A stretch of 64,000 nt of DNA, from assembly GCF_028858725.1 (NCBI RefSeq), contig NC_084759.1, positions 94,880,362 to 94,944,361 on the forward strand, given 5' to 3'. Shown here piece after piece: positions 6,797 to 35,738 of this stretch (positions are counted from its first letter, which is position 1; each line of letters starts with the position of its first letter). Origin of the DNA: Colius striatus (lineage: Eukaryota > Chordata > Aves > Coliiformes > Coliidae). Made by a program: the position numbers and the translations under genes. The notes below the pieces were generated by a model. That model did no database searches, was not told where the DNA came from, and saw only the letters and a list, made by a program, of their open reading frames with translations.

Positions 6797-7451
6797 TGAA
6801 CAACCTGGCATCACCTCTTTCTTTCCCCTCCAAGGCCTGGAACTGGGCAGGCTGAACACGGTGGACCTTGCCCAGGATGCTGTGCTGTTGGGCACCGGTC
6901 ACCAGGCATCACCTTCCAACACTGGGATTGGGCCTGCTCACTAGAGAGGTTTGGGTGGGGGTCTGCTGGTTCTCCTTCCTCCCATAACAAGACACCAAGA
7001 GTTCATCCCCTTCATTCACCCAGGGGGATTTCAAAGCGACATCTTCCTTAAGGCCACAGACTTGCCAAGGAGGAAATTTCTGCCACTGGTCTCAAAGCTC
7101 AGGCATTGGCTTACTCTCTGTGCTGACTCTAGGCTGCTCCTTCCTCTATATCCTCATCCCTCTGGACCTCTTTCACCTGGTTGGTGCCTGGTTGGGCCAC
7201 ACACACTCACAGGGCACATGGATCTACCCAATCCTGTGAGAAGGAATCACAGTGTTCAATATGAGCAAGTATCAGCTAGCTGTGCAGTTGCAGCCTACCC
7301 AGCCTGGTGGAACTATTGTTTTCCAAGATGCGATTTGATCAGCAACCTGGAAACCACTGCTGGTGCTGCCACTGATTGAGTGTGACAGTGCAGAGTAGCA
7401 CTGGGACAACAGGCATCGTGAGCTCTGCAAGTATACTTCATGAGCCTTCAG
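6797..7451. other. Intergenic, immediately 5' of the FAM243A remnant
   Basis: I see no gene in this stretch. It would hold the promoter or 5' untranslated region of FAM243A, but I find no TATA box, CpG cluster or convincing splice acceptor. The open frame at 6951..7379 has no recognisable content. Confidence 0.5.
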
Positions 7452-8181
7452 ATGCCACCATGCAGGGCATTGCAAATCCACTCCTCAGTAATTCACAGAG
7501 GCTGCTTTGATGCTGCTTCAAAGAGGCAGAGCCTGCCGTATTTAAGAGCTCTGAGGATGCTGCAGCTTAATAGTTTCAATACATTTTTAGCAGAAGCAGA
7601 TAGTCCAGAATATCTTATAACAGGAGGAAAAGTAGCCAAGGAGGCCAGTCTGCATTGCCCAGTATGGACACTTGTTCATGCCGGCAGATGCCCACGGTGG
7701 ATGCCCTGGAGATACAAACTGGTATTGAGAGGTTCTCTGCCCATCCATTAGCAGAACCTTGTGTGAAGCTCTGACCACATCCTATGGGAAGTGCATAATG
7801 GTGACAAATGGATAAAATGCAGCCAATGTGTGCAGGGACAAAAGAAGGGAAGGAGATGGAGAGGGGAGCCCTGCTGCCAGTCCCACCGGCAATCCACATG
7901 TACAGTATTAAGTGTTGCCCTGGTTACTAGAGCCAATGGCCGTGATCTTATTCTTGTGCCTTCATCTTACAACCATCATCTATCCTACGGACACCACCTG
8001 GGCTTCTTTGAAATGGTTTATTACAGACAACAGCAAGAACTTTGCCCTGAGGTCTGTAGAGAGGACCCACTCCTGTAAGTGTACTCTCTTCAGTGACTTG
8101 ATTGTTAAAGGAATAGAGAAGATGACTCCAAACATATGGAAGGTAGTGACTCATGAAGAAATGGGAGAGCTTCTACCTTGA
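7452..8181 (+). pseudogene. FAM243A: FAM243A (C21orf140-like) gene, nearly full length but frame-broken
   Basis: FAM243A is a protein of unknown function, about 250 residues from one coding exon in mammals. Here about 243 codons' worth of sequence is recognisable. The first frame (ATG at 7452, beginning MPPCRAL; an in-frame ATG also lies at 7440) carries 'LPYLRALRMLQ', 'SPEYLITGG', 'VWTLVHAG' and 'WMPWRYKLVLRG', then meets TAG at 7749. Homology continues in the +1 frame ('SYGKCIMV' near 7780), which meets TAA at 7813. It returns to the first frame near 7880-7970 ('TVLSVALV', 'DLILVPSS') and shifts again near 7970-7985 into +1 for the conserved end ('TWASLKWFITDN', 'CTLFSDLIVKGIEK'), with a stop at 8179-8181. 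That makes at least three frame changes plus one nonsense codon. The plus orientation, opposite to SMIM11, matches human synteny, so this is the orthologous locus and not a retrocopy. The family match is from memory of the human protein. Assembly error cannot be excluded. Confidence 0.8.
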
Positions 8182-8559
8182 CACATTTTCTTAAATGGTT
8201 CTTCCTGCAGTCAGGCTTCAAATCTGTTTTGATTGCTGTCAAATGAGTTACCCTGCTCTAGCCCTGCTGAGCCTTTCTCATAAAAAAATGTAAACTGTAA
8301 GGACTACATGCCAATAGCACTCATAAAAGAGACAATTTAAAATCAAAATGTCTTGGTTTAGGTGTATTCTATGACTAGGCTGATATGCTTGCATCAGAGA
8401 GGGTGCAAGCCTTATCACAAAAGTGGGCCAAACCATGCCTAAGATCCACTTTCTGTATTCTGTTCTGAATTCCAGTTTCTGTCTTATATTTGTTGTGTTT
8501 TTTCCCAGACAGTACAGAAGCATGTTGACAGTCTCTCACTTGGTTCCCCCTATTCACTC
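8182..8559. other. Intergenic between the FAM243A remnant and the interspersed repeat
   Basis: No gene is seen. The first part may be the old FAM243A 3' untranslated region. An AATAAA-type signal in plus orientation is not evident within the first 200 bases after the stop. Confidence 0.4.
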
Positions 8560-9536
8560 TCATCCTTGTTAGGATGGCAGAGGCCCCAGCAAAATGTGAG
8601 GAAAAAGATAACCAAGGATGTTTTGGATTAAGACAAGGGCAGGGAGGGCTCGCTGACAATTACGGTTCTAGGCAAAACAGACTCCAGTACTCGACTTAGA
8701 GAGGAAAGTAGGAAAGTTTGTTCTGCTACCTACAAGAAACAGAACAGAACAAAAAGCAAAAATAGAGCAGGATGATGAGAAAATTATAACCAGCACTTTA
8801 AGATCTCTCTCTCCCTTCCCTCCTTTCTTCCCAGGCCCAGCTCACTGCTCCCAATATCTCTACCTCCTTCCCCACTCAACAACTCAAGGGGGCAGGGAGT
8901 GGGAGATGTGGTCAGTCTCTCACACATGGGCTCTGCTGCTTCTCTCTGCTCAGATGAGGATGACTCCTGGCATTCTTCCCCTGCTCTGATACGGGGTCCC
9001 TCCCATGGGACACAGTCCTTAACAAACTTCTCTGGTGTGGGTTGTTCCCAACAGCTGTGGCTTCTGCCAATACAGGGTCCCTCACACGGGACACAGTCCT
9101 TGGTGGATATCTCTGGCGTGGATTCTTCACCAAAGTTGCAGTTTCTGCAGATACAGGGTCCCTCCCTTGGGACATGGCCTCTTCTGAGCATAATTTTAAT
9201 GAGCTTCTTTGTCATGGGTTTCTTCCCACAGTTACAGCTTCTGTGAATATGGGGTCCCTCCCATGGGACATGGCCTGCTACGGCCATAGTTTCTGCCCCT
9301 GGCTCAGGGTCTTTAATGAAGTGAATCACTGCCCCTGGCTAGAGAAGAAGAAAGAAACAGGAAGAAGCCTCCTCTTCCAGCTTCTTCTTAAAAAGTGATC
9401 GGGGAGTCATCTAATTGGCTCAGCCCCAGAAGTGGGTCTGGCTCAGAGCTGGGGAGAGTTGTGAGCAACTACTTGCAGGACCTATCTTTACAGCCCCTTC
9501 CCCCTTACCAGAAATGGCTGTCATGTCAAACCATAA
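8560..9536 (+). mobile_element. Avian interspersed repeat (LTR-like) with internal tandem units
   Basis: I recognise this from memory as a common avian dispersed repeat. In order it has an AC-rich stretch with 'GCAAAACAGACTCCAGTACT' near 8670, a C/T-rich section with 'CTACCTCCTTCCCCACTCAA' near 8860, and 'GGGCAGGGAGTGGGAGATG' near 8890. Then come tandem units each containing a variant of 'GGGTCCCTCCCATGGGACA', and a tail with 'TCTAATTGGCTCAGCCCCAG' near 9410 that ends near 9535. I cannot state its formal family name. The overall plan (unique flanks, a minisatellite-like core, a CCAAT-like ATTGG box) suggests an LTR or non-autonomous element. Open frames on both strands (8784..9329 minus, 8899..9246 plus) are side effects of the repeat units. 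Confidence 0.65.
8994..9270. repeat. Tandem 81/81/96-bp units inside the interspersed repeat
   Basis: The shared box GGGTCCCTC starts at 8994, 9075, 9156 and 9252, giving spacings of 81, 81 and 96 bases. Each box is followed by a 'GGGACA' and a variable spacer with 'TTCTCTGG' or 'ATATCTCTGG'. Because every spacing is a multiple of three, frames stay open through all units on both strands. That explains the repeated 'VPWEGP'-like peptides. Confidence 0.85.
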
Positions 9537-19383: not shown

Positions 19384-21229
19384 TCAATCACCCTTCTTCT
19401 CTGCTTCTCTTTTCAATTTCTCTTCCCGTTCCCTCTTCAGCTTCTCTTCAATTTTTTTGCTTTGGTACATTTTTACTCCAGCAAACGCTAAGCAAAGGAT
19501 CAATGTTTTAGCTGCCAAAATGTACATCAGCAATGGGAAAGTCTCCAAAGCCTGAAATGCAAAGTAATATGTTTAGGCAGTTACTGGAATACTTGGACAA
19601 TAAAGATGAACTTACAGGGATGCTCTACAGCTTCCTACAGCAACGTCATTATTCAAAGCAATGGTAATGCTCCTCTGTTCATAGAATCATAAGAAACTGT
19701 GCTGATCAATGCCTAGCAGAAAGGACAAAAATGAGTCCACTCCACTCAAGTTTGTACCTGAAGCCCCTCTGCACAGGCCTTTGTTGCTTTTGTTTGCTTT
19801 ACAGCAAATAGAATACTGGTACAATCTGGAGCTAAAACGAGGGAAGAATCAAACATCTTAAGATCATCGTAAAAGTGGAAATGCTTCTGAAGAATTCCCA
19901 CATGAGCAATGGATCCATGCATATCAGCTACCAGATATCATCCCCAAAGACACTTTTGTGCTCCTAGAAATTTCAATCCATGTCAGTTTTGCAATTAACT
20001 TGCCCAGATCTGGAAGGTATAGATAAATGCCTTTAAACTCAAAGAAGAGAAAAAACAAAAACCACCAAAACACACAGCCTCCCATGATTCAGTTTCAGGA
20101 GTTTCTAATGCCTGGAACCACTGAAATAGCACGACATACTTGAATGTTATAAAAGCATGCTACTCTAAGTGCACATGGAGTGGAAAATAAAATGCAAATG
20201 GGTAATGCTGTGAACTTGGAATACAAATATAAGTAGAGAAGCACAGGCACTCAGTGAAAGATGACAATTCCAGAAGGGTACTGAAGGTACATTTAACTTC
20301 CCAGCCTACTAATTCAAAGAGCCAACTGGCTAGAAGGGTAAGTCCAGTCTCACAGGTTCACAGGGCCAGCTCTCCCTTAGCAAGCCTCCCAGTACTCCCC
20401 TGTACCCTTAGCAGCCTTCCAGTCCCTCATAAAGCTGTTTGGCCATTGTCAAACTACTGAATTTATAAAAAGCCCTGTATCCATAGACCATTGGTGTGTG
20501 TCCTTAAAGTCCACAAATCAGAGGCTCAAGTGGGGTCTTTTATAATGCTACGTTCACCTTTGGCATCAGGCCACTCCTCTCCAATATTACTAAAACCCTC
20601 CATTCTCTGTCCATCTCTCCACATACGATGGGAGATAAAAGTGGCAAATTCTTTAAACCACAGGTCTGCAACAGCAGAAAGATAAAGCCAAGGCTTGGGG
20701 TTAGCACTGCTTTCTTGCCAAATGGCTTGATTTAACATGTTAAAATTGTCCACGCATGAGGTACTCGCTCAAACATTTCTGTGCCCTAAACATGTATCGT
20801 GCAGAATGTTTATTGCCCCAAGACATCGAAAGACATAGTGGAGAAAACAACCTCCAGTGGAATTTGCTGAGGAAAGCCAAGTCAAAGAGAAGTCTGGAAA
20901 GGGGAAAGCCAGCAGGAGTGGAGAGGAGTAGAGCACAGCTTGCCTACCAGTTCTGTGCTCAGGTCTAAAGTGTGAGGCTCCAACAGCAAACACTGGGACC
21001 AGCCTACAAGGTGCAAGCACGTATGGCAAGAAAGCGTAACAAGAAGTCCTCTGTCCTTGAGGTGCAGAGAACAACCTTCACCATTTTCTTTCTAGGCAAG
21101 GAAACCATAAACACAGGACCCACCCGACCATACCTTACATGCATCTGATTGAAAGAGCAGAAATTCATTGCTTTACAAATACGTTTTATGAATGGGAGAG
21201 AGCCTCACCTTCCAGTTAAATGCCACCAT
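19384..21229 (-). CDS. SMIM11: SMIM11, small integral membrane protein 11 (two coding exons)
   Basis: Coding exons are 21209..21229 (seven codons, MVAFNWK, then donor GTGAGG) and 19384..19551 (acceptor TTTGCATTTCAG; 55 codons and TGA at 19384..19386). The junction is phase 0 and the product is 62 residues. Residues 8-16 ('ALETFPLLM') and the hydrophobic stretch of about 13-33 ('YILAAKTLILCLAFAGVKMY') match the human SMIM11 plan, which starts MNWKVLEHVPLLLYILAAKT. A highly charged helical tail of K, E and R repeats follows. The protein is a predicted single-pass membrane protein whose role is unknown. The start is strong (AAGATGG). The 5' exon probably begins at 21297, after a TTTAG acceptor, with a further non-coding exon in the CpG island at 26.0-26.2 kb. 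SMIM11 lies downstream of KCNE2 on the same strand, as in mammals. The avian N-terminus has two extra residues before the shared NWK. Confidence 0.88.
19552..21208 (-). other. SMIM11: SMIM11 intron between its two coding exons
   Basis: This phase-0 intron runs from donor GTGAGG (21208..21203) to acceptor CAG (19554..19552). I see no transposon, RNA gene or further exon within it. Open frames inside (for example 20254..20460 plus, 20769..21074 minus) have no recognisable content. Confidence 0.75.
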
Positions 21230-28070: not shown

Positions 28071-28448
28071 TCAAGGCGATCCAAGGCTTCCTTTCTCCCT
28101 TGCACCCAAGTTTTCGTGGATCACACACTTGAGGTCTTCTGGATTCAGAACCTGGCTTTTATACTTCTCACCCCAATCCTCAACGATGTACTGGTGATAG
28201 GGGTCATTAGAGTGCTCTCGCCTCTTTGATTTCACAGTACTCACCAAGATTGCCACAATAATGAAGGAGAACATCCCAATCATCACCATCAAATAAAGGA
28301 TAACGTAATCAAAGTTTTCAGCTTCGACCTTGGCTTGCAATTTATCTGCTGCTTCCGTCATGTTTTTCCTCCAGCCGTTCATGTAAGTGAGAAAGGTTTC
28401 CTTGAAAATGTCTTCCACTGCCCGAGTGAAGTTTTGCATTTCAGCCAT
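28071..28448 (-). CDS. KCNE2: KCNE2 (MiRP1), voltage-gated potassium channel beta subunit
   Basis: This is a 125-residue single-pass membrane protein that assembles with alpha subunits such as KCNQ1 and KCNH2 and changes their gating. It is known from heart and from gastric acid secretion. The N-terminal outer part has two glycosylation sequons, N6-F-T and N29-M-T. The membrane helix spans about residues 48-70 ('[20 protein letters not shown]'). The juxtamembrane signature '[20 protein letters not shown]' (about 70-89) is essentially identical to human KCNE2, and 'EKYKSQ' and 'IHENLGA' near the end are shared. Human KCNE2 has 123 residues, so the length fits. The whole coding sequence is in one exon, as in mammals. 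A 3' splice acceptor (TTGTCTTTTGTAG, ending at 28464) lies 15 bases before the ATG, so at least one non-coding exon lies upstream at higher coordinates. The gene is intact. Confidence 0.97.
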
Positions 28449-33330: not shown

Positions 33331-33785
33331 AATAAACTTGGATCCACCTGAGGGTACTGATGGACCTGGCAGAAGTGCTCCCCAAGCCACTTTCTATCAT
33401 TAACCAGCAGTTCTGACTAACCAAGGAGGTCTCAGTGGACCTCCTAGTGGTTGGCAAATGTGACACTCATCTACAAGAGGGGCCAGAAGGAGGATCCAGG
33501 GAACTGCAGGCCTGTCAGCCTGACCTCTGTGCTGAAGAAAGTTATGGATTATATAATCTTGAGTACCATCATGAGGCACATACAAGACAACCAAGGGTTC
33601 AGGCCAGTCAATATGGCTTTATGAAATGCAAGTTCTGCCTGACTAACCTGATCTCCTTCTATGACAAGGTGACCTGCTTAGTGGATGAGGGAAAGGTTGT
33701 GGATATGGTCTTCCTGGACTTTAGTAAAGCCTTCAACGCCGTCTCCCACAGTGCTTTCACTAGTGCTGGCAAAACTGAAGGTGTT
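33331..33785 (+). mobile_element. CR1 LINE fragment (reverse transcriptase region)
   Basis: Plus-strand landmarks in order are an 'AEVLPKPLSII'-like start near 33370, 'GARRRIQGTAGLS' in a shifted frame near 33480 (the 'KEDPGNYRPVSL' block), then an open stretch with 'SQYGFMKCKFCLTNLISFYD' and 'VVDMVFLDFSKAFNAVSHS' near 33610-33760. This is the palm region of CR1 ORF2. Frame breaks and truncation make it a fossil. It is better preserved than the copy at 32045..32470 and may be a separate insertion or part of the same one. Confidence 0.88.
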
Positions 33786-34400
33786 CATTTGGGTTTTCCA
33801 AGAGGAATGCAATAAATACATCTAGAAAGAAAGAATGAACACGTCTACAATAATGCTTTGGATCAAGTGTCCCATACATCCTGTGAAGGTGCTAAACCTC
33901 AGCCAACCAGGTAACATCAGTAGATTGTTGCTTGTGAGGCTTTAACTTCTGGAGAAGTTGAAGGTGGTCTTCTATGCTGGCTGATTTGTCAGTTACATTG
34001 AAGCAACTCATGCGTTCAGAATTGAGTGTTCATGGTGTGAAAGGACAAAATAGTCTACCTTCAGTCAATTTTGTGATGTTCGTAGGTGTACAGCTGTCAC
34101 CTACTTAAAACCAACCAAAGCAATGAGAAATAGCAATGTCAAAATGACTTAACGTAGTATAATCTCGTAATACAGCTGCTGGCATTGGCACACCAATGAA
34201 ACACATTGTTAAAAGATCCAAACCTCCTTCAGTGTAAAATGCAGATGAGTTAGTTACAGTGGAGGCTGAGTAAAATATTGCCATACTGATCTTGCAGAAA
34301 TATGTGCAGTGAATGTGCTTGTAGCACAGACTACAAAGCACAACAAGCCAACCTTTGATAGAAAGAGGAAAACAGGAGTATCGTCTTGTTTCAGTAATAC
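33786..34400. other. Stretch between CR1 and the ERV-L relic, possible decayed retroviral 3' end
   Basis: No LTR could be recognised, although a 3' LTR of the minus-strand retrovirus would be expected here. An open frame at 34105..34341 minus has no recognisable motif. Confidence 0.35.
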
Positions 34401-35018: not shown

Positions 35019-35738
35019 CTATCCATGCCAAAACGGTCCCCAAAGTTGTACAGCAGTACCAGGGCCCTGTAATTTCTTTGGATCAATTACTCAGCCTTGG
35101 TCTTGTAAATGTCTTGTCGTCGATTCAGCAGCTGTTTCAATTTCTGATTTTGAGACGGACATAATCAATAGATCATCAATATAATGGTAAACACTGACAG
35201 TACCAGCATATAGTGCTAGATCACCTGCTATCATTTCGTGGCAAGTTGAGGGACCATGTTTGTAGCCCTGAGGCGATACCTGGAAAGTATATTGCTTTTG
35301 TTGCCAGGTAAAGGCAAACTGGTCTTGGCTTTCTGAAGCAATTATAGAAAAGATAGGATTAGCAAGATCCATCACCACCTTCCAAGACTTTACGTTTTTG
35401 TTGTTTTCCATAATCATGTCTGGTACTGTAACTGCAAGAGGGCAGAGGGTAACTTTATTCAGTTCTGTATAATCTACAGTCATTCTTCAAGTGCCATCTG
35501 GCTTTCAGACAAGCCAAACTGACTTATTAAAAGCATTCATAGTTTCCCTAATTCCCAATTCTTGAGGTGTCTGAATGGTTTGGGTAATTCCCTCCTCCCC
35601 CCTAGAATATGATATTGATTTACAGTTACCACCTTGGTAGTAACATGTGTCACAATCAGATTCCACTTTGGGAATCCATGCAGGACAGTTATAGATCAAA
35701 TGGCAAATGCAGCTTGTGAAGTGAACTTTGTGAAACAA
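35019..35738 (-). pseudogene. ERV-L reverse transcriptase, interrupted by in-frame stops
   Basis: One continuous frame carries the reverse transcriptase: an upstream part ('GIRETMNAFNKSVWLV'), 'MTVDYTELNKV', 'QYTFQVSPQGY', the active site 'HYIDDLLI' (YIDD at 35183..35172), then the 'KLQGPGTAVQLWG' block. Three TGA stops interrupt it at 35507..35505, 35489..35487 and 35093..35091, and TAG at 35021..35019 ends it. All are in the same frame, so damage here is by point substitution rather than indels. The family is judged from the ERV-L-like wording of the motifs. The protein is not functional. Confidence 0.85.

Follow-up and report, generated by a model that had tools for sequence, protein, structure and literature searches.

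Does this locus still carry a working FAM243A gene and, if it does not, was the gene lost recently or long ago? The question is raised by a stretch of 64,000 nucleotides from the bird Colius striatus (contig NC_084759.1, C1 below, 94880362-94944361; hereafter, the window), in which an original prediction, made from the letters of the DNA, had placed a near full-length FAM243A (C21orf140) with a broken frame. We find a near-complete FAM243A remnant at 7460-8194 on the plus strand, running from the former start codon to the former stop codon. It is very probably a unitary pseudogene: deletions, insertions and a nonsense change would have inactivated the single FAM243A orthologue of this bird, and the inactivated gene would then have drifted.

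Identity and boundaries of the remnant

Frame-aware alignment of 7400-8260 with the Phoenicopterus protein P0001 gave a score of 803, with 168 of the 241 aligned residues identical, whereas the control maxima were 42 (15 mononucleotide shuffles) and 43 (20 random pieces of the window). The near full-length gene with a broken frame is thus borne out, and the conserved blocks TWASLKWF and CTLFSDLI that the original prediction had picked out are clearly present. A database search with frame pieces of the remnant returned 41 homologues (best expectation value, E, 6.9e-84), and all 41 carry a precomputed PF27940 label. Pfam scans did not return PF27940, even for intact P0001, and gave weak, unrelated matches alone for the remnant pieces and the family. 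The coding stretch is continuous along the protein in the alignment; the open reading frame of about 250 codons expected of FAM243A proteins is absent from the remnant.

The boundaries had to be moved. ATG 7460, in GCCACCATG context, is the former start, and the aligned C-terminus FYLDTFS, whose last sense codon ends at 8191, is followed by TAA. A start at 7452 and an end at 8181 had been proposed; we rejected both because their frames do not match the family, the ATG at 7452 lying outside the ancestral frame and the TGA at 8181 closing another one. In place of the proposed 730 bases, said not to be a multiple of three, the span from ATG to TAA is 735 bases, a multiple of three by chance.

Breaks in the reading frame

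The original prediction had called for a frame-aware alignment to avian FAM243A, and with all eight guide proteins that we used the frame is broken. Four guides (P0001, P0007, P0002 and P0023) reach Met1 and show all six breaks listed in Table 1; the local alignments of the other four start at 7485-7488 and show five. Only three frame switches had been described before, with breaks 1 and 6 missing. Translation from ATG 7460 without correction runs for 16 codons before a stop. A TAA at 7813 had been taken for the disrupting stop, and we rejected it as the inactivating change since it lies outside the ancestral frame; the premature stop in that frame is the TAG at 7749-7751, seen with five of the eight guides. 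Against this call, P0032, P0034 and P0201 place break 2 at 7734-7740, without any in-frame stop.

The breaks were read from one assembly, and two of the six are single extra bases relative to P0001, typical of long-read errors, so that an intact gene spoiled by assembly or base-calling errors has to be considered. We regard this as very unlikely. The same alignment lacks between two and five codons at three breaks, unlike base-call errors, and KCNE1, KCNE2 and the SMIM11 exon nearby are clean. Indel errors, moreover, do not give the amount of change at invariant columns described below.

Change without visible constraint

We placed the window's residues into an alignment with avian proteins and split the columns into invariant and variable ones. 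The reference was a set of 31 avian proteins without a low-quality mark (27 named and four others), and each of these was compared in turn with the remaining 30. In the window, 15 of 54 invariant and 51 of 187 variable columns are changed; the 31 proteins, pooled, differ at 37 of 1769 and 1041 of 6063, respectively (Fisher p 4.5e-8). Change at invariant columns is therefore 13 times the pooled avian rate (0.278 vs 0.021). With four columns removed on each side of the breaks, the counts are 12/38 and 37/143 (p 1.4e-6). Since invariant and variable columns change at equal rates, the remnant has drifted without visible constraint.

Several observations weigh against so clean a contrast. In Aptenodytes, which belongs to the 31, invariant columns account for a 0.19 share of the changes, compared with 0.23 in the window; once the columns flanking the breaks are removed, the two shares are 0.28 and 0.24. 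The shares of Nyctibius, Tauraco and Podargus (0.08-0.11) also lie above most of the reference set. The C-terminus of P0011 (Aptenodytes patagonicus), a record not marked low quality, is altered and resembles a shifted frame near the window's break 6; decay may also have begun in penguins.

By region, the invariant and variable changes are 6/26 and 16/72 for residues 1-102, 0/6 and 18/47 for residues 103-160, where the invariant columns are too few to tell, and 9/22 and 17/68 for residues 161-253. The first of these regions bears on whether the locus still yields a shortened protein, for instance one that starts at an upstream ATG and runs through the N-terminal part. A 109-codon open stretch, 7422-7751, does span most of the N-terminal part. 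It opens with wrong-frame codons, however, and given the equal change across residues 1-102 we judged a retained N-terminal protein unlikely. As for a non-coding RNA at the locus, Rfam gave no match at the gathering score in the window, which is the sole check of that reading. Taken together, a surviving short product or RNA seems improbable, and presumably no working protein is made.

The original prediction had described the damage as recent. In the FAM243A tree the window's end branch is 0.39 changes per column, against a median of 0.12, and this length, the six breaks and the equal rates of change together point to a long decay. They suggest a loss that took place tens of millions of years ago, a rough figure resting on avian neutral rates as we assume them to be. 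In neutral simulations from the window's codons, run at the level of replacement seen at invariant columns, 3.1-3.5 stops arose on average; one was observed (P(<=1) 0.10-0.18). The tree, whose bootstrap had not converged, puts the window beside Morus bassanus (support 89/83, unstarred), on a long branch. The two have four rare residues in common, one of them in no other row; the window's three multi-codon deletions are absent from Morus, which has residues at each of these places.

Gene neighbourhood and copy number

The gene order is KCNE1 (+), FAM243A (+), SMIM11 (−), KCNE2 (−), with all three neighbours open; KCNE1 lies 27 kb upstream, beyond the window on the same contig (plus strand, C1:94860345-94860713). 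The order mirrors what we take to be that of human 21q22. This synteny upholds the earlier proposal that FAM243A is at its ancestral place. The SMIM11 exon was matched by tblastn at 19557-19393 (E 1.8e-17), with a human SMIM11 query, and KCNE2 matches Pfam ISK_Channel (E 3.6e-13). For both KCNE2 and FAM243A of the window, bird proteins are closest. KCNE2 has K28 and K40, where the alignment rows of birds that we take to be passerines have R28 in 11 of 11 and E40 in 10 of 11; on these residues the bird is probably outside the passerines.

Table 1. Features of the FAM243A locus in the window
Feature	Position	Strand	Observation
FAM243A remnant	7460..8194	+	Score 803 vs control maximum 43; 41 database matches
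Former start codon ATG	7460..7462	+	Aligned to Met1 with 4/8 guides
Frame break 1	7484..7488	+	Near 7487; two codons short vs P0001; reached by 4/8 guides
Frame break 2	7734..7759	+	Five codons short vs P0001; near 7758 with 5 guides, 7734-7740 with 3
Premature stop TAG	7749..7751	+	5/8 guides; other 3 put break 2 before the stop
Frame break 3	7804..7813	+	TAA 7813 in non-ancestral frame
Frame break 4	7922..7923	+	Near 7922; 8/8 guides
Frame break 5	7977..7980	+	8/8 guides
Frame break 6	8149..8152	+	Two codons short vs P0001; 8/8 guides
Former stop codon TAA	8192..8194	+	Directly after FYLDTFS
SMIM11 coding exon	19384..19551	−	Open; TTTCAG acceptor before; TGA closes
KCNE2	28074..28448	−	125 open codons; 90% identity to bird KCNE2

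Could the remnant instead be a retro-copy or duplicate, with the working gene elsewhere? The uninterrupted coding stretch would fit a retro-copy, and it means that a lack of introns cannot separate parent from copy. The remnant, however, sits between KCNE1 and SMIM11/KCNE2, and a six-frame search of the bird's own 1.21-Gb genome (191 contigs; the assembly may be incomplete) found no second FAM243A copy, the three matches to an intact relative all falling at this locus. We consider a working parent elsewhere extremely unlikely.

Upstream of the remnant, 6817-6897 (+) matches the translated upstream part of the FAM243A relative P0015 (E 6e-7) and is perhaps conserved upstream sequence; beyond it, the upstream translations of two relatives gave weak matches alone. 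Downstream of the remnant, at a distance of about 800 bases, lies a tandem repeat (8988-9174; 81-base unit, 2.3 copies), and an open minus-strand frame across it had no Pfam match. Two reverse-transcriptase fragments, both retroelement remnants, lie at 35094-35486 (−; RVT_1, E 9.3e-10) and 33417-33812 (+; RVT_1, E 0.0012, under the curated cut-off).

FAM243A records in other birds

We surveyed database listings (the best 120 of 153 matches for FAM243A and the best 120 of 319 for KCNE2), which give one name per cluster and come from a search that needs shared exact words. Among the matches listed, many avian FAM243A orthologues have full-length records. Ten of the 40 named avian records are marked LOW QUALITY, which can mean a poor assembly (Buteo, Sarcoramphus, Cariama, Ciconia, Apteryx, Morphnus, Morus, Haliaeetus, Leptosomus and Porphyrio), and three others are short (Bubo, Colinus and a second Cariama model). 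Porphyrio (12/52 invariant vs 49/187 variable columns changed) and Bubo (8/42 vs 27/159) show a neutral-like pattern, as in the window; Apteryx and Colinus, with 2/56 and 2/46 invariant columns changed, lie close to the intact set, and the remaining records that are marked or short are intermediate. The gene models P0035 (Haliaeetus), P0037 (Cariama) and P0041 (Bubo) are without internal blocks of their full-length relatives, as would happen if annotation had bridged breaks with introns. None of the 40 named FAM243A records is from a bird that we assume to be a passerine, while passerines make up 13 of the 20 named avian cluster representatives for KCNE2.

The original prediction had raised a possible lineage-specific loss. 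The loss itself fits the synteny, the absence of another copy, the full-length avian orthologues and the neutral-looking change; "lineage-specific" may understate the case, other bird lineages having damaged records. We treat repeated avian loss of FAM243A as a lead that has support, short of an established result.

Discussion

The remnant resembles FAM243A family members in its neighbours, its full-length similarity and its recognisable start and stop codons, and differs from working members in its six breaks, its stop and its lack of visible constraint. As a kind of event this is known; what is new is the detail of the decay and the pointer to repeated avian loss. Gene erosion has been described for COA1/MITRAC15 in vertebrates, including birds (PMC8709867), and loss for CNR2 in parrots (PMC9727682). 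Both are reported as vertebrate genes whose loss was repeated or spans a whole clade of birds, as may hold for FAM243A; FAM243A, unlike them, is functionally uncharacterised. In the portions of the literature that we could consult, we found no account of a loss of FAM243A.

What the gene once did may be glimpsed from its predicted fold, which is RNase H-like and closest, with moderate confidence, to mariner/SETMAR transposases. The template modelling (TM) scores against SETMAR/Metnase and Mos1 were below 0.5 on the query side; a first structure model, which was poor (predicted local distance difference test, pLDDT, 49), took no part in that comparison. Sequence profiles run against the PDB gave weak HACE1 and ABL-type matches alone (E 0.05 or more). 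FAM243A seems to have its origin in a jumping-gene enzyme. Across 97 aligned members, column 47 is Gly in all 97, column 125 is Glu in 42, Asp in 42, Gly in 12 and Ala in one, and column 185 is Asp in 93. If column 47 corresponds to the first catalytic Asp, as we assume from the mariner motif positions as we know them, FAM243A differs there from the DDE, RNase H-like catalytic domains of SETMAR/Metnase and Mos1. An active catalytic triad is then doubtful, and with Gly at that column in every member the protein probably worked by binding rather than cutting DNA. Such a protein could be dispensable in some bird lineages.

What began as a "broken gene" becomes a unitary loss with well-defined bounds, and apparently an old one, of a conserved, little-studied vertebrate gene with a transposase-like fold. 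A wider proposal, which we hold to be evenly balanced between right and wrong, sees in FAM243A the domesticated gene of a mariner-like transposase, retained from amphibians to mammals, that birds have lost on many independent occasions, perhaps in the passerines as a whole. Were this true, birds would form a natural knockout series for a gene without assigned function, and a comparison of bird lineages with and without FAM243A could reveal the role of the gene.
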